Assembly: GCF_000021945.1 (NCBI RefSeq)
Contig: NC_011831.1
Span: 3,237,353 to 3,301,352, forward strand
Reading direction: 5' to 3'
Length of the DNA: 64,000 bases
Origin: Chloroflexus aggregans DSM 9485
GTDB taxonomy: Bacteria; Chloroflexota; Chloroflexia; Chloroflexales; Chloroflexaceae
In this document: positions 8,571-36,827 of the stretch, one piece after another
How the letters are laid out: the number at the start of each line of letters is the position of its first letter
Numbering within the stretch: the first letter of the stretch is position 1
Translations under genes and position numbers: made by a program
Notes under the pieces: generated by a model
The model's input: only the letters and a program-made list of their open reading frames with translations
Database searches by the model: none
What the model was told of the DNA's origin: nothing

Positions 8571-8602
8571 TACGAGAGGGGACACCGATGGGGGGAAACG
8601 GC

Positions 8603-8647
8603 GTGGTAGTGGTAGTGGTAGTGGTAGGGGCACGGCATGCCGTGCCC
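8603..8647. repeat. GGTAGT microsatellite and 20-bp perfect palindrome
   Basis: Four or more GTGGTA units are followed by GGGCACGGCATGCCGTGCCC (8628-8647), a perfect loopless palindrome followed by TTTAAT. It lies about 80 bp upstream of the PAS/STAS gene. It may be a dispersed REP-like element or act as a terminator for upstream transcription. Confidence 0.6.
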
Positions 8648-8728
8648 TTTAATATTCGTTTCGTAGTTTTCAGGTTATAATTATACGGAAATACTTCGCC
8701 CTTCAACTGTTCGTTACAGAGGTGACCA

Positions 8729-10690
8729 ATGCATCTTGATCCCTCATCGATGTCCAATAATAGCCTGCTATCCGAGCGCCTGCTCGCGACGATAGAACGA
8801 ACCTCGCTTCTCGTTACTGAAACTGATGCACAGGGTGTGATCACCTTCGTTAACCCGGCGGCCCAACGCTTTTTCGGATATACTCCTGCCGAATGTATTG
8901 GCAAGACGGTACTTGAGTTGACCCATCCCGCTGACCGTGATCGTTTGCAGCAAACAATTATCGAGTGCGTGCGTGATGGTCGGCACCTGGCTGAGATTGA
9001 GAACCGGATACTGCATCGCGATGGCTCGGTGTTTCATTTCCTTTGGTCGGTAGCGATCCACTATAGCGATCAAGGAACTATTATCGGTTTTACCTCGATT
9101 GGGCAAGATATATCGGCCTTACACCAGCTGCGCAGCGAGCTGTACGAGAAGCGCGAGATGTTGTATACAGTCATCGATCATTTACCACTCGGCGTGTTTT
9201 GGAAGGATAAAGAATCGCGCTTTCTCGGCTGCAACCGACGTGTCCTGGAAGATTCGGGTCTGAGCAGCTTTAAAGACATTATCGGCAAGACCGACTTTGA
9301 ATTGCCGTGGCGTCGACAAGCAACCTACTATCAGTACAGTGACCGCGTGGTGATGGCCTCTGGTCCGCAGACGAATATTGAAGAGACGCTCGTCCGCGGT
9401 GACGGGAGGCAAATTTGGATCCGCACAACAAAGCTGCCCTTGCGTCGTCAGGGTGAAGTGATCGGTGTGCTCAGTTTTTATGAAGATATTACCGAACAAC
9501 GTCAGCAAAACGAATATCTGCGCACACTCCGGTTACTGGTGGAAAATGCTCCTGACGGGATCGGTATCGTTGATCCGGATTTGCGGCTGACCTACACCAA
9601 CCAGGCTTTTATCGAGCTACTAGGCTATGAGCAATTGGTCGGTATAGGGTGGCCCGATCTAGTTCACCCTGATGATCGCGAACACCTTGTCCACATGGTG
9701 CGACGGGCGACAACTGGGGAAGCTGCGCACGGTACCTTGCGCTACCTGCGCCGCGATGGGTCGTTCTTAACGGTGCAAGTAGCGATTCCGGTGTTACGCG
9801 ACCGTACCAACAAACTGATGGGTTTTGGTGTCATCAATCACGATCTGACGGAACAACTCGAGGCGATGGCCCGTTTGCAGGCGAGCGAACAGCAGCAGCG
9901 AGCGTTGTTGCAAGCTTTGCCCGATTTGATGTTTTTGCTCAGTCGCGACGGGGTGTTCTTGCAGTACAAAGCCGATGGTAGTGATGAACTAGCTGTGCGG
10001 CCAGAAGTCTTTCTCCATCGCCGTTTTGATGAAGTATTACCACCCGTACTCGCTGAGCTGACGCGGCACCATCTCGAGATCGTGAACCAAACCGGTCAGC
10101 CGCAGCGCTACGAATATCAATTGGAGATAGGTGGCGAGTTGCACGATTATGAAGCGCGTATGCATCCGAGCGGTGATAATGTGTTGGTACTGGTGCGTGA
10201 TATAACCGAGCAGCGCCGCGCCGAACGTGAGCGACAGACGTTGATACTGCAAGAGCAGATCATTCAAGCTCAACTTGTGGTGCTGCGTGAGTTGAGCACA
10301 CCGCTGCTCCCGATTGCCAATGGCGTGGTCGTGATGCCGCTGATCGGAACCATTGACTCATCACGTGCGCAACAGGTGATGGAGACTTTACTCGATGGAG
10401 TTAATCGGTATCAGGCAACGGTAGCCATCATTGATATTACCGGCGTGAAGGTCGTTGATACGCAAGTCGCCGGTGCTCTGATCCGCACTGCACAGGCGGC
10501 GTCCTTGTTAGGCGCACAGGTGGTGTTGAGTGGGATCAATCCTGAGATTGCGCAGACGTTAGTGCAGCTTAGTATTGATCTCGCCGGTATCGTAACCAAG
10601 GCAACGTTGCAAGATGGTATTGCGTATGCCTTGAGCCGACAACAGTTGCGCACTCGTCCTGTTCCGACGGCGCTGAAGATGGTACGATAG
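8729..10690 (+). CDS. Four-PAS sensor with C-terminal STAS domain (RsbR-like)
   Basis: The 653-aa soluble protein has four PAS domains (about 20-135, 145-260, 265-385, 395-510) and a STAS domain (about 530-640). PAS cues include FVNPAAQRFFGYTPAE, FWKDKESRFLGCN, TNQAFIELLGYE, and DITEQ linkers after each domain. The STAS part reads MPLIGTIDSSRAQQVMETLL, IIDITGVKVVDTQVAGALI and GINPEIAQTLVQL, matching RsbR-type stressosome proteins including the Thr in VDT. No kinase or cyclase domain is present, so output must pass through partners. AGAGGTG lies upstream of the ATG. Its closest visible relative is the 653-aa protein at 28643-30604. Confidence 0.88.
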   Translation: MHLDPSSMSNNSLLSERLLATIERTSLLVTETDAQGVITFVNPAAQRFFGYTPAECIGKTVLELTHPADRDRLQQTIIECVRDGRHLAEIENRILHRDGSVFHFLWSVAIHYSDQGTIIGFTSIGQDISALHQLRSELYEKREMLYTVIDHLPLGVFWKDKESRFLGCNRRVLEDSGLSSFKDIIGKTDFELPWRRQATYYQYSDRVVMASGPQTNIEETLVRGDGRQIWIRTTKLPLRRQGEVIGVLSFYEDITEQRQQNEYLRTLRLLVENAPDGIGIVDPDLRLTYTNQAFIELLGYEQLVGIGWPDLVHPDDREHLVHMVRRATTGEAAHGTLRYLRRDGSFLTVQVAIPVLRDRTNKLMGFGVINHDLTEQLEAMARLQASEQQQRALLQALPDLMFLLSRDGVFLQYKADGSDELAVRPEVFLHRRFDEVLPPVLAELTRHHLEIVNQTGQPQRYEYQLEIGGELHDYEARMHPSGDNVLVLVRDITEQRRAERERQTLILQEQIIQAQLVVLRELSTPLLPIANGVVVMPLIGTIDSSRAQQVMETLLDGVNRYQATVAIIDITGVKVVDTQVAGALIRTAQAASLLGAQVVLSGINPEIAQTLVQLSIDLAGIVTKATLQDGIAYALSRQQLRTRPVPTALKMVR

Positions 10691-30949: not shown

Positions 30950-33215
30950 GGCCCCTCTGGTCATTGCGAGCGCAGCGCGCAATCTGACAAGTCGGCGTGT
31001 TCGCTTGCGATGATGCAGATGTCTCGCTTCGCTCGACATGACACGGAAGGGAAGATGTCTCGCTTCGCTCGACATGACACGGAGGGGAAGATGTCTCGCT
31101 TCGCTCGACATGACACGGAAGGGAGGAGGGCGTGCTCCGCTTGCCGTGCCACCGCCGGCGGCCCCTCTGGTCATTGCGAGCGCAGCGCGCAATCTGACAA
31201 GTCGGCGTGTTCGCTTGCGATGATGCAGATGTCTCGCTTCGCTCGACATGACACGGAAGGGAGGATGTCTCGCTTCGCTCGACATGACACGGAAAGGAGG
31301 ATGTCTCGCTTCGCTCGACATGACAATTGGCGTGCTCCGCTTGCAATGACCGGGAAGGGAGGATGGCGCGCAGCGCTTGCCCTGCTACCGTCCGGCGGCC
31401 CCTCTGGTCATTGCGAGCGCAGCGCGCAATCTGACAAGTCGGCGTGTTCGCTTGCGATGATGCAGATGTCTCGCTTCGCTCGACATGACACGGAAGGGAG
31501 GATGTCTCGCTTCGCTCGACATGACACGGAAGGGAGGAGGGCGTGCTCCGCTTGCCGTGCCACCGCCGGCGGCCCCTCTGGTCATTGCGAGCGCAGCGCG
31601 CAATCTGACAAGTCGGCGTGTTCGCTTGCGATGATGCAGATGTCTCGCTTCGCTCGACATGACACGGAAGGGAAGATGTCTCGCTTCGCTCGACATGACA
31701 CGGAAGGGAGGATGTCTCGCTTCGCTCGACATGACACGGAAGGGAAGATGTCTCGCTTCGCTCGACATGGCACGGAAGGGAAGATGTCTCGCTTCGCTCG
31801 ACATGACACGGAAGGGAAGATGTCTCGCTTCGCTCGACATGACACGGAAGGGAAGATGTCTCGCTTCGCTCGACATGGCACGGAAGGGAGGAGGGCGTGC
31901 TCCGCTTGCTATGATGCAGATGTCTCGCTTCGCTCGACATGACACGGAAGGGAAGATGTCTCGCTTCGCTCGACATGGCACGGAAGGGAAGATGTCTCGC
32001 TTCGCTCGACATGACACGGAAGGGAAGATGTCTCGCTTCGCTCGACATGACACGGAAGGGAAGATGTCTCGCTTCGCTCGACATGGCACGGAAGGGAGGA
32101 GGGCGTGCTCCGCTTGCTATGATGCAGATGTCTCGCTTCGCTCGACATGACACGGAAGGGAAGATGTCTCGCTTCGCTCGACATGACACGGAAGGGAGGA
32201 GAGCGTGCTCCGCTTGCTATGATGCAGATGTCTCGCTTCGCTCGACATGACACGGAAGGGAAGATGTCTCGCTTCGCTCGACATGACACGGAAGGGAGGA
32301 TGTCTCGCTTCGCTCGACATGACAATTGGCGTGCTCCGCTTGCGATGACCGGGAAGGGAGGATGGCGCGCAGCGCTTGCCCTGCTACCGTCCGGCGGCCC
32401 CTCTGGTCATTGCGAGCGCAGCGCGCAATCTGACAAGTCGGCGTGTTCGCTTGCTATGATGCAGATGTCTCGCTTCGCTCGACATGACACGGAAGGGAGG
32501 ATGTCTCGCTTCGCTCGACATGACACGGAAGGGAGGAGGGCGTGCTCCGCTTGCCGTGCCACCGCCGGCGGCCCCTCTAGTCATTGCGAGTGCAGCGAGC
32601 AATCTGACAAGTCGGCGTGTTCGCTTGCTATGATGCAGATGTCTCGCTTCGCTCGACATGACACGGAAGGGAGGATGTCTCGCTTCGCTCGACATGACAC
32701 GGAAGGGAGGAGGGCGTGCTCCGCTTGCCGTGCCACCGCCGGCGGCCCCTCTGGTCATTGCGAGCGCAGCGCGCAATCTGACAAGTCGGCGTGTTCGCTT
32801 GCGATGATGCAGATGTCTCGCTTCGCTCGACATGACACGGAAGGGAAGATGTCTCGCTTCGCTCGACATGACACGGAAGGGAAGATGTCTCGCTTCGCTC
32901 GACATGACACGGAAGGGAGGAGGGCGTGCTCCGCTTGCCGTGCCACCGCCGGCGGCCCCTCTGGTCATTGCGAGTGCAGCGCGCAATCTGACAAGTCGGC
33001 GTGTTCGCTTGCGATGATGCAGATGTCTCGCTTCGCTCGACATGACACGGAAGGGAAGATGTCTCGCTTCGCTCGACATGACACGGAAGGGAGGATGTCT
33101 CGCTTCGCTCGACATGACACGGAAGGGAGGAGGGCGTGCTCCGCTTGCCGTGCCACCGCCGACGGCCCCCCTCTAGTCATTGCGAGCGCAGCGAGCAATC
33201 CGGCGGTAAGCCAGC
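30950..33215. repeat. 2.3-kb array of 36-bp hairpin repeats in 174-bp higher-order units
   Basis: About 35 copies of a 36-bp unit (core TGTCTCGCTTCGCTCGACA) occur. Nine copies of a second hairpin type (core TTGCGAGCGCAGCGCGCAA) start at 30961, 31171, 31408, 31582, 32407, 32581, 32755, 32964 and 33177. Distances between the second type are 174 bp or 174 plus about 36n, so the array grew by adding 36-bp units. Sequence between units is nearly identical (GACACGGAAGGGAAGA). All six frames stay open because 36 is divisible by 3, giving false ORFs up to 493 codons. There are no unique spacers, so this is not CRISPR. Confidence 0.95.
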
Positions 33216-33400: not shown

Positions 33401-34078
33401 ATGATGCAACCATTCCTATCGGTACCGTTGTTTGCAGGTTTAGATGAATCGACTGTTGCTGTCATTCTTGCTGCCGGACGCCCGCTGCGAGTGCGGCGTG
33501 GTAGAAGCCTGTTTACCGAACAAACGCCGGCGACGTGGGTCTATTTGGTGAAAGATGGCTGGTTTCGGCTGTATAAATTGGCTGCAAACGGACGGCAAAG
33601 TGTAGTTAGATTAGCGATTCCACCGGAAATAATCGGTATTAGTGCATTATTTCCTGATGCGATCTATACTTTGTCGGCACAGGCCATCACTTCTAGCCTT
33701 GTGTTGCGCTGGAGTGCAACAGTGATGCAAACATTCGCTCAGACCTATCCGCAGTTACGGCAAAATAGTTTGCAGATCTTAACCAAATTGCGAGAAGATC
33801 TTCAACAACAAGTTCTCGAACTGGCTACCGAGCCGGTTGAACAACGATTGGCCCACACGCTGCGTAGACTAGCCGACCAATACCATTGTGTACCACAAGC
33901 AGATGGATGGATTACCATTCCGATCATGCAACGTGATCTAGCCGACTTGATCGGTGCCAGTCACTATACGGTCAATCGTTTGCTCCATCAGTGGCAACAA
34001 CAGGGCCTTGTCGTCTTCCCATCGGCCCACCTACTCATGGTTGATTTGGTGGCGATCACCGCTCGGTTCGATGCATAA
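33401..34078 (+). CDS. Crp/Fnr-family transcription regulator
   Basis: The 225-aa protein has an N-terminal cyclic-nucleotide-binding-like barrel (residues ~10-125, VYLVKDGWFRLYKLAANGRQSVVRL), a dimer helix (LREDLQQQVLELATEPVEQRL) and a C-terminal winged HTH (MQRDLADLIGASHYTVNRLLHQWQQQGLV). It lacks the Cys cluster of Fnr, and the cAMP-contact motif of true CRP is not clear, so the ligand (haem, NO, redox or nucleotide) is unknown. The start is 33401 or 33404, without a strong ribosome-binding site. It lies directly upstream of, and in line with, the bd-like operon at 34202 and is the obvious candidate to control it. Confidence 0.88.
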   Translation: MMQPFLSVPLFAGLDESTVAVILAAGRPLRVRRGRSLFTEQTPATWVYLVKDGWFRLYKLAANGRQSVVRLAIPPEIIGISALFPDAIYTLSAQAITSSLVLRWSATVMQTFAQTYPQLRQNSLQILTKLREDLQQQVLELATEPVEQRLAHTLRRLADQYHCVPQADGWITIPIMQRDLADLIGASHYTVNRLLHQWQQQGLVVFPSAHLLMVDLVAITARFDA

Positions 34079-34201
34079 CGTTCCTCACCACGCATTGCAG
34101 CAGCTCCTGTGAGAAAAGTTGCGCTAGCGCAACGTATGTGTCACCCTCCTGCGCTATACCCGATCTGGGTTATTCGTGATGTTTGTCACGAAGGAGGGTG
34201 T

Positions 34202-35614
34202 ATGTATCCGATTTGGGAAGGTCTCTTCATCCACTCGGCGATGTACGTGGCGATTGTTTCAGCCTTCCACGTACTAGCTTCCCACCTGACGGTCGCAGCG
34301 GCATGGTTTAATCTTTACCTTGAACGACGGGCGGTATACGAACAGCGACCGGAATTATACGTGTACCTGAAGCGAAGTGCGCTAGGTCTGCTCGTGTTTG
34401 CCTATGTGTTTGGAGCGATGGCCGGAGTGGGCATTTGGCAAACTACGACGGCGGCTAACCCACGCGGTATCTCAACCTTGATCCACAATTTTGTCTTCTA
34501 CTGGGGGGCAGAATGGTACATGTTCCTGATCGATGTTGTGGGTATTATCGCCTACTACTATTCGTTTGATCGGGTTAGTCCACGTATCCATCTGCGGCTG
34601 GCGTGGATCTTAGCACTTGGCGGAACCGGTACCCTCACAATTATCGTTGGTATTCTCTCATTTAAATTAACACCGGGTCTATGGCTAGAAACCGGCAACA
34701 GTCTCAACGGCTTCTTCAATCCTACATTCTGGCCTCAGATTTTACTCCGCTTCTCATTGATGTTTACCATCACTGCTGCCTGGGCATTGCTCATTTCGAC
34801 CGGCTTGCCGAAAGGATACTTTGCCCGTGAATACATTATCCGCCGGGCAGCAGCGATGGGTTTAGGCGGTTTGGGTGTCGCGTTAGGCATCTGGTTCTTC
34901 TGGTTTGAGCCGGTCTTGCCAGAACATGCGAAGATCATTCTACGTTCGCCAGCAATTCCCGCGATTACCTACACAGTAATTATCGGTGGATTGATGGCTA
35001 CGTTTGCCGGACTCCTCTTTGCGTTGTGGTTGCCACGCCGTCAACATCAATTGATTGCCCTTGGTGCGATGCTGGTACTCTTTGGTGCTATCTTCGGCGC
35101 CGAACGTACCCGGGAAGTGATGCGCAAGCCTGATATTATCGCCGGTTATATGTCGTCAAACCAACTGGTCTTCGCCGATCTCCCGGCCCGTGGTATTCAA
35201 CGCGAAGAACAAGGGCTGAACGAACGCGGTATGCTGGGTTCATTACCGTTTTTGCCGAAACCCGACGCGGTTGCGCTCCTACCGATCACAACCGGTTTAC
35301 CTTCACGTGAAGTTGCCATCGGGCGAACACTGGTTATCCAACAATGTGCCTCGTGCCATAACGTGAGCGATCAAACGGCGATCACTATCTTTCATCAGCG
35401 GCTGGCACTGCGTTCACTGGCAGATTTGCTCGCACGCCGTAACCTAACGACCGCGGCCAAGATCGAGAACTACCTGAAAGCAATTGGTGGTTTTCCGTAT
35501 ATGCATCCCGTCGTTGGTACCGATGAGGAACGTGCCTATATAGCACTCTATCTCGAGTATTTTTATCAGCAACAGCAACGTAATCCACAAACTGCCGCTC
35601 ATAGTGCCAAATAA
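34202..35614 (+). CDS. Divergent cytochrome bd-like subunit with C-terminal cytochrome c
   Basis: The 470-aa protein has about nine transmembrane helices (residues 5-310) and a C-terminal haem c domain (CASCH at 382-386, likely axial Met434 in FPYMHP). The membrane part resembles CydA: His residues 11, 23 and 28 in helix 1, WGAEWYMFLIDVVGI around residues 101-115 (compare the acidic helix of CydA), then FDRVSPRIHLRLAWILALGG and FFNPTFWPQILLRF. The long quinol loop (GRQPW region) is not found. It likely takes electrons from or gives electrons to a haem, not quinol. AAGGAGG precedes the ATG. The second subunit follows after 13 bp. Confidence 0.7.
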   Translation: MYPIWEGLFIHSAMYVAIVSAFHVLASHLTVAAAWFNLYLERRAVYEQRPELYVYLKRSALGLLVFAYVFGAMAGVGIWQTTTAANPRGISTLIHNFVFYWGAEWYMFLIDVVGIIAYYYSFDRVSPRIHLRLAWILALGGTGTLTIIVGILSFKLTPGLWLETGNSLNGFFNPTFWPQILLRFSLMFTITAAWALLISTGLPKGYFAREYIIRRAAAMGLGGLGVALGIWFFWFEPVLPEHAKIILRSPAIPAITYTVIIGGLMATFAGLLFALWLPRRQHQLIALGAMLVLFGAIFGAERTREVMRKPDIIAGYMSSNQLVFADLPARGIQREEQGLNERGMLGSLPFLPKPDAVALLPITTGLPSREVAIGRTLVIQQCASCHNVSDQTAITIFHQRLALRSLADLLARRNLTTAAKIENYLKAIGGFPYMHPVVGTDEERAYIALYLEYFYQQQQRNPQTAAHSAK

Positions 35615-35627
35615 TGAGGAGGTCAAC

Positions 35628-36827
35628 ATGAACGTCGGTGACATGCTGCGGATGATGCGTGATCCGTTAGGGGCACCGTTCTTTCCACCGGTGCTGCAAG
35701 TATTGCTAATCGTGACGTGGGTGTTGCACATCTTTTTCGTCACGTTGGCTCTCGGTTCGAGTAGCCTGTCGATCTGGGGCTTCCTCCTTCCGACTCCGAA
35801 CCGTCTCCGGCTGGCCCGGGTCGCGGCTCGTCTGACACCCAATGCGGTTGGTCTGGGGATTGTGACCGGGATTGCACCGTTACTCTTTGTCCAGACCATT
35901 TACGATCCGATCTGGTACGCGGCCAATACCCTCACCGGTTTCTGGTCGGTGCTCTTTATCTTTGTGGTGATGGGTGGCTACAGCCTTGCGTATGTGTTTT
36001 ATCTTAAAGGCAGCCCTAACGGGAAGCTCCTTTGGTCGGCAATTGGGTCGTTCATCCTCCTCTTTTTTGCCGGTTGGGTGATGCACGTGCTGGCTGCCGT
36101 TTCGATTCGCCCGGAGCGTTGGCTAGAATGGTATGCTTCGAACGGCATTGTCGACACTCGCGGGATGGTGTTTCACGCTTATAACTTGCCCCGGCTGTTC
36201 TTCTTACTGCCGTTGCAAGCCGGACTCAGTTTGGCTGTTGTGCTTATGCTTTTTGGCTGGTACTTCCGCCACCATGAAGCCGATGCCGCGTTTATGCAAT
36301 GGGTCGCCGAACTTGGCCGGCGACTCGGGCTGGTGATTAGCCCGCTCTATGCAATGACCGGGCTGCTCTGGGCTGCGACCGAAGGCAGAGCGTTTGGCAT
36401 CGGTCTCCCGCTAGGTATTGTACTGCCGGCCCTTGGCACAGGCCTAACCGCCTACTTCTTCGTGCTCAAACAGCCGTTGCGGCACGCGCCTCGCTCACTC
36501 TTGGTGTGGATTGGAACCCTCTTGAGTGTCGGTGTGATTCGTGAAGTGATCCGCGCCGTTTCCCTGGCAAGGTTTGGCTATTCAGTCGCCGAGTATCCCT
36601 ATCGCATCGATTGGGGTTCAGTCGTGATTTTTAGCGTTACCACAGTGGTAGGTGTGATGGTGATAAGCTACCTTGTCCTCGTTCTTTACCGGTCGGGTGG
36701 TGGCAATGGCGATACCCAACCGTCGCCACGAGTAGAGCGGTTTGGTGCAATCGCAACCGGTATGCTAGGTGCGTGGTTTGGTTTCTTCTTACTGGTTGGC
36801 CTCTACGCGACCTTCTTTTTGAAATAG
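35628..36827 (+). CDS. Second divergent CydA-like membrane subunit
   Basis: The 399-aa protein has about nine hydrophobic helices. Helix 1 carries VTWVLHIFFVTLALGSSSLSIW, a CydA-like helix with His34. A later helix has SFILLFFAGWVMHVLAAVSIRPERW, and MVFHAYNLPRLFFLLPLQAG supplies further His. No haem c motif is present. It looks like a second, haem-poor homologue of the CydA family rather than a CydB. GAGGAGG just upstream fixes the start at 35628. It is expressed with the 34202 gene. The function of the pair (oxygen, NO or another acceptor) cannot be told from sequence. Confidence 0.65.
   Translation: MNVGDMLRMMRDPLGAPFFPPVLQVLLIVTWVLHIFFVTLALGSSSLSIWGFLLPTPNRLRLARVAARLTPNAVGLGIVTGIAPLLFVQTIYDPIWYAANTLTGFWSVLFIFVVMGGYSLAYVFYLKGSPNGKLLWSAIGSFILLFFAGWVMHVLAAVSIRPERWLEWYASNGIVDTRGMVFHAYNLPRLFFLLPLQAGLSLAVVLMLFGWYFRHHEADAAFMQWVAELGRRLGLVISPLYAMTGLLWAATEGRAFGIGLPLGIVLPALGTGLTAYFFVLKQPLRHAPRSLLVWIGTLLSVGVIREVIRAVSLARFGYSVAEYPYRIDWGSVVIFSVTTVVGVMVISYLVLVLYRSGGGNGDTQPSPRVERFGAIATGMLGAWFGFFLLVGLYATFFLK

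Follow-up and report, generated by a model that had tools for sequence, protein, structure and literature searches.

To our knowledge, the characterised cytochrome bd oxidases use quinol. A haem-c-bearing branch of the same superfamily has reportedly been named OR-C by Murali, Gennis and Hemp (ISME J, 2021), for CydA homologues that carry haem c and have no quinol site. In the accessible portions of papers that cite that work, OR-C is listed beside OR-N and qOR, and one of these papers calls OR-N uncharacterised. The OR-N, or CydAA', enzymes of Nitrospina and Nitrospira are presented, in the part of the literature available, as two CydA paralogues proposed to be partners, with no quinol loop (Q-loop) and with cytochrome c as the proposed donor. 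Here we describe an operon of two genes, encoding subunit 1 and subunit 2, that lies behind a Crp/Fnr-family regulator gene in a 64,000-nucleotide stretch of the Chloroflexus aggregans DSM 9485 genome (hereafter, the window). With a probability of roughly 0.7, we suggest that the product of the operon is a membrane-bound oxygen (O2) reductase in the cytochrome bd superfamily, fed by a periplasmic one-electron carrier instead of quinol.

The window pair falls within a haem-c-bearing CydA family of many phyla, one that fits the description of OR-C: subunit 1 has the haem c site and no quinol site, and its relatives come from many phyla. As apparent peculiarities, its subclade has aspartate in place of E107, and 13 of the 22 subclade loci carry a Crp/Fnr gene and a TTGCGCNNGCGCAA box. 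The traits listed above for OR-N are shared, including two CydA paralogues encoded side by side, which is observed here at the gene level (hhalign 97.2%). This contrasts with the architecture of the Nitrospina protein, which is described with 14 membrane helices in the portion of the source available, whereas window subunit 1 has 8 in its model and bears a fused haem c domain. Compared with the canonical CydAB of E. coli and Geobacillus, the window enzyme retains the CydA fold and the equivalents of H19, E99, E445 and R448, with aspartate for E107, but has neither the Q-loop nor the histidine of haem b558, and instead has a CydA-like partner and an added haem c.

Relatives were collected in one scan of the genome collection (146 found, 80 loci kept), and alignments of 45 rows for subunit 1 and 36 rows for subunit 2 and a tree of 59 sequences were made. 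As shown by alignment and by the predicted structure, subunit 1 has a CydA fold, to which a haem c domain is fused; it keeps the active-site residues (aspartate for E107) and is devoid of the Q-loop and the b558 histidine. In a single-sequence Pfam scan, both Cyt_bd_oxida_I (20.6 bits, cut-off 26.2) and Cytochrome_CBB3 (20.5 bits, cut-off 27) stayed below their cut-offs. The profile of the 45 relatives matches Geobacillus CydA (5doq_A) at an E-value of 1.4e-13, and its C-terminal part matches many cytochromes c. The AlphaFold model, with a mean predicted local distance difference test score (pLDDT) of 87.3, superimposes on solved CydA chains with Z-scores of 27.6 to 29.8, the best match being CydA of E. 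coli bd-II (7ose_A; Z 29.8, root-mean-square deviation (rmsd) 3.2, 315 aligned). Mapping onto E. coli CydA pairs H23 with H19, E104 with E99, D111 with E107, E305 with E445 and R308 with R448. Each of H23, E104, R183, E305, R308, C382, C385, H386 and M434 is present in 45/45 rows, and position 111 is glutamate in 31/45 and aspartate in 14/45, the latter being exactly the rows of the subclade that includes the window copy. The motifs singled out by a first-pass annotation of this DNA (H23, E104/D111, DRVSPRIHL, NPTFWP, CASCH at residues 382–386 and M434) are thus all present, and its proposal that the enzyme is a divergent member of the bd superfamily and has a haem c of its own is borne out by the fold, the profile match and the invariant CASCH and M434.

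The C-terminal domain is called a cytochrome c domain because of the CxxCH motif, the methionine and the profile matches to cytochromes c. Of the 82 subunit-1 open reading frames (ORFs), 81 have at least one CxxCH; the one without it is the initial portion of a split ORF in locus L052. In this Thermus altitudinis locus (L052:4986-6407), a sequencing error or a real split places the C-terminal part of subunit 1 in an ORF of its own. The missing quinol loop was likewise correctly described at first pass: between the same flanking columns, the Q-loop span of subunit 1 measures 64 residues, compared with 190 in E. coli CydA, 125 in the CydA of L119 and 124 in that of L026. For the haem b558 ligand H186, no histidine is found in the corresponding model helix (residues 176–200). 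The numbers of lysines and arginines in the loops place the N-terminus and the haem c domain of subunit 1 outside, by the positive-inside rule.

Subunit 2 is probably a partner without a full active site, as judged from its alignment. Pfam and NCBIfam scans with subunit 2 gave no match, and PDB sequence searches gave no convincing one. Comparison of its profile with that of subunit 1 returned a probability of 97.2% (hhalign, E 3.4e-11) and pairs H34 of subunit 2 with H23 of subunit 1, as well as R305/E306 with R304/E305. An assignment as CydB was rejected on the absence of a match between the subunit 2 profile and E. coli CydB (hhalign 0.1%), although the folds are similar: the subunit 2 model (pLDDT 91.1) reaches a best Z of 23.6 against CydA (rmsd 3.9, 334 aligned) and of 20.2 against CydB. 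H34, Q89, Y118, Y122, W165, R189 and R305 are invariant in 36/36 rows. Within the R-x-x-x-R run that begins at R305, R309 is found in 25/36 rows, and the intervening position 306 varies (E 15, Q 10, D 8, H 2, I 1). Subunit 2 lacks DRxSPRxHL and NPTFWP, and its counterpart of the acidic helix carries no acidic residue. The suggestion that both proteins share the CydA motifs therefore stands for the first-helix histidine, and fails in subunit 2 for the acidic helix, DRxSPRxHL and NPTFWP; the R-x-x-x-R run is a further shared feature. The proposed two-subunit make-up agrees with the profile match between the two proteins and with the position of the subunit 2 gene beside subunit 1 in most relatives; it is present (E<1e-20, with the profile built from the 36 rows) in 76 of 82 loci, and of the six loci without it, L067, L085 and L113 end less than 100 bases from subunit 1, whereas L076, L101 and L107 do not.

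In the tree, whose deep order is not to be trusted since the program warns of long branches meeting at deep joins, the 45 haem-c-bearing rows group together (100/97) and stand apart from the 11 CydA rows labelled qOR in this analysis (100/99) and from three other CydA-like rows. These three are unlabelled and have no CxxCH, and the tree holds no labelled OR-N reference. The separation from qOR-labelled CydAs is the outcome of the CydA-superfamily tree that had been suggested at first pass. The window copy resides in a subclade of 14 (100/99), comprising 12 Chloroflexota (window counted), one Thermus and one metagenome-assembled genome without a phylum. Within a sample of 400 Chloroflexota genomes, subunit 1 is matched in 31, of which 10, this one included, reach at least 69% identity over nearly the whole length; the others are a partial frame in genome G395, two matches at 32% and 18 weak ones. 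Among seven congeners, two have a copy (G086 and G267) and four do not, while G414 is outside the 400-genome sample.

Some relatives carry further haem c sites. Thirteen of the 82 subunit-1 ORFs have eight CxxCH motifs and one has seven, representing a longer multihaem version from other lineages. The eight-motif proteins (L055:4995-7637 and 12 similar loci) are 843-886 amino acids long, several are of Desulfuromonas type, and in several of these loci the subunit 2 gene precedes subunit 1 instead of following it. In L047, L048 and L049, a small cytochrome c gene with one CxxCH (Pfam match for L047 and L049) adjoins subunit 1, which points to a c-type donor.

A complete second copy of the regulator, subunit 1 and subunit 2 genes is present in the same order elsewhere in the genome (L005:4806-8331, minus strand), with 79% identity to the window copy for subunit 1 and 78% for subunit 2. 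A stop inside the L005 match falls outside the 399-residue reading frame, which is intact. The second copy is flanked by an ArsP-type permease gene and a Fur-family gene; together with a small histidine-rich ORF, these occupy L005:3813-4752 and 8573-9721, possibly a metal-related neighbourhood. The two operon copies account for the only PF01654 matches in this genome, and the same scan gave no match to a canonical CydA.

The regulator resembles NnrR and FixK2 in belonging to the Crp/Fnr family and in being associated with the same class of DNA box. It has no FNR-type cysteine cluster, and no column has cysteine in more than 4 of the 12 aligned regulators, so that an FNR-type iron-sulphur sensor is unlikely. 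FixK is its best NCBIfam match, with a score of 62 bits where the cut-off is 300. Subunit 1 has a Crp/Fnr gene no more than 1.5 kb away in 13/22 subclade loci and in 0/61 others; some of the loci counted without one are on contigs with little flanking sequence, and the counts are not independent, as the Crp-linked loci are interrelated. Between the regulator gene and subunit 1 is the palindrome TTGCGCNNGCGCAA, which is exact in 11 of the 13 Crp-linked loci and near-exact in two (one mismatch in L039, two in L053). When the span from 700 bases before to 120 after the ORF start was scanned with TTG and CAA held fixed, the box was exact in 10/12 Crp-linked loci and within two mismatches in 0/70 others; the thirteenth Crp-linked locus, L007, is exact. 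The window contains one match where 0.01 would be expected, and this genome has only two exact matches, one per operon copy, compared with one for the reversed pattern. We note that the linkage of the Crp/Fnr gene to the operon, already proposed at first pass, is reinforced by this co-occurrence of regulator gene and box across loci. The box was rejected as a marker of a genome-wide regulon: with one mismatch there are 57 sites in this genome vs 21 for the reversed pattern, and congeners have 1 to 12 exact sites, so only its position before this operon is informative.

Given the spacing to a TATACC hexamer, the box centre would lie near -41.5, the position of class II Crp/Fnr activators. A TATTAT is found 22-23 bp 3' of the box in L005, L036, L037, L038 and L039. 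A second palindrome, TTCGTGA-N6-TCACGAA, also stands out, its core TCGTGA-N6-TCACGA having one match in the window against 0.01 expected; similar palindromes are observed in the Roseiflexus-type loci L007, L036 and L037, and none was found in the second copy, L005. In the accessible parts of the respective sources, the NnrR consensus is given as ctTTGcgnnnncgCAAag (PMC1274295) and the FixK2 box as TTG(A/C)-N6-(T/G)CAA (PMC6710368). A box of this FixK/NnrR type, TTG(A/C)-N6-(T/G)CAA or TTGCG-N4-CGCAA, is present at the locus: TTGCGCNNGCGCAA fits the NnrR consensus, with which the FixK2 box overlaps. Control of the operon by redox state or nitric oxide (NO) is thus a reasonable guess from the co-occurrence of regulator and box, the fit to the NnrR consensus and the overlap with FixK2.

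Table 1. Features of the regulator–operon locus, in window positions.
Feature	Position	Strand	Remarks
Crp/Fnr-family regulator gene	33401..34078	+	225 aa; cNMP_binding (PF00027) 51.9 bits, HTH_Crp_2 (PF13545) 48.1 bits
TTGCGCTAGCGCAA box, FixK/NnrR-type palindrome	34119..34132	+	likely activator site (predicted)
TATACC, -10-like hexamer	34155..34160	+	22 bp 3' of box; putative, read from the sequence
Second palindrome, TTCGTGA-N6-TCACGAA	34173..34192	+	just 5' of ribosome-binding site; possible operator or RNA hairpin
Subunit 1 gene: CydA-like core (residues 1-322) and cytochrome c domain (~369-460)	34202..35614	+	
CASCH haem c attachment motif, residues 382-386	35345..35359	+	45/45 rows of alignment
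M434, likely sixth haem c ligand	35501-35503	+	
Subunit 2 gene: diverged CydA paralogue (CydA'-like), ~10 membrane helices	35628..36827	+	

Two gene starts differ from those first assigned. For subunit 1, GTG 34109 is replaced by ATG 34202, which is preceded by AGGAGG, and for subunit 2, GTG 35604 is replaced by ATG 35628; relatives start at the same residues. The regulator gene lies in line with the operon, and the gap from its stop codon to the revised subunit 1 start is 123 bp, as originally stated. Nested tandem repeats of ~2.2 kb (31017-33200; 36-bp unit, larger periods of 100-244) stop ~200 bp before the regulator gene, and the long overlapping ORFs listed across them look like repeat artefacts.

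The most likely product of the operon is an O2 reductase that receives electrons from cytochrome c or auracyanin and is produced when O2 is low or NO is present, whereby we infer the donor, the acceptor and the signal. The first-pass annotation had cautiously left the acceptor as unknown; since subunit 1 retains the active-site residues found in O2-reducing CydA, with aspartate for E107, O2 is the first guess. Electrons would enter at haem c from a periplasmic carrier, which in Chloroflexus is perhaps auracyanin, or else a cytochrome c that receives its electrons from alternative complex III (ACIII). Auracyanin is a candidate donor because ACIII reduces it in Chloroflexus, as stated in the available part of PMC8004040. 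From haem c, electrons would reach two active-site haems, held by H23 and E305, where O2 would be reduced with cytoplasmic protons. Subunit 2 would stand in for CydB, possibly with a haem bound at H34, and a drop in O2 or the appearance of NO would lead the regulator to activate the operon.

Alternatively, the complex could mainly remove NO, as an NO reductase or an NO-tolerant oxidase induced by NO. In addition to the fit of the box to the NnrR consensus and the lack of FNR-type cysteines in the regulator, TTGCGCGAGCGCAA precedes hemN2, which is among the B. diazoefficiens genes lowered in an nnrR mutant in the portion of PMC6710368 available, although the same portion shows that FixK2 uses an overlapping box. 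The active-site residues, however, are those of O2-reducing CydA, and no NO-related family is found among 20 neighbour proteins scanned (10 from L005, L036, L044, L047, L049, L051 and L052, and 10 from L047, L049, L051 and L052), 11 of which have no family at all at the limits used. Moreover, FixK2 is not known to be an NO sensor, and FixK, albeit far below the cut-off, is the regulator's best NCBIfam match, which leaves a mainly NO-removing role unlikely.

The complex might also be linked to quinone after all, through a new quinol site or by acting like ACIII. Such a role is discussed, in the accessible part of PMC3578206, for the bd-like enzymes of Nitrospina and Nitrospira, which also have no Q-loop, and both window models resemble ACIII subunits (8k9e_C, Z 17.9 for subunit 1 and 15.4 for subunit 2). 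The scores against CydA (29.8 and 23.6) are far higher, however, and Chloroflexus has separate ACIII genes according to the available text of PMC8004040, which makes a quinone link highly improbable. An ordinary quinol-oxidising CydAB, for which the CydA fold and active-site ligands could be invoked, is hardly conceivable, being ruled out by the missing Q-loop and H186 ligand and by the tree, with the absence of a sequence match between subunit 2 and E. coli CydB counting further against it.

Several observations weigh against the favoured reading of a carrier-fed O2 reductase. The genome also has two haem-copper oxidase genes, so the enzyme is not needed for respiration as such. The equivalent of E107 is aspartate in 14/14 subclade rows, and the place of H186 is uncertain by one residue, corresponding to R183 in one alignment and to L182 in another. 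Against cytochromes c6, residues 367-460 of subunit 1 score Z 5.8 to 6.6, and for such values the structure-comparison tool warns of chance common arrangements; the Pfam matches of this domain fall below the cut-off. For subunit 2, two M. tuberculosis entries gave CydB, not CydA, as the best chain (Z 20.2 and 20.1). With respect to regulation, the seven congeners have 1 to 12 exact box matches each, G267 has nine of which none is at its operon copy (contig C88), and a clear -10-like hexamer is not seen in the upstream sequences inspected from L041, L042, L043, L053 and L066. Finally, the bound haems, the donor and the acceptor cannot be read off sequence.

We regard the operon as a member of an already proposed and apparently untested family, and we have not seen its regulatory link described; no report of a tested OR-C enzyme was found in the open-licence library searched. 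The second genome copy, the Crp/Fnr linkage (13/22 vs 0/61) and the TTGCGCNNGCGCAA box are added here. In a 2021 study of the diel transcriptome of Chloroflexus aggregans, complex IV is identified with the COX cluster, and the portion available does not mention the operon (PMC8004040). A genus of cultivable thermophiles, in which a compact operon of two genes adjoins its own regulator, offers a practical test system, in which it could be tested whether the proposed cytochrome c-using branch reduces O2, which haems are bound and whether energy is conserved. As a more far-reaching and still doubtful proposal, low-spin haem b558 may have been lost and replaced by the fused haem c; electrons for the reduction of O2 (or NO) would then come straight from a copper or haem protein in the photosynthetic chain, with a dedicated switch responding to NO or low O2. 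If true, the auracyanin pool of Chloroflexus would be connected to a high-affinity oxidase, which would shield the phototrophic apparatus in the mats of hot springs.

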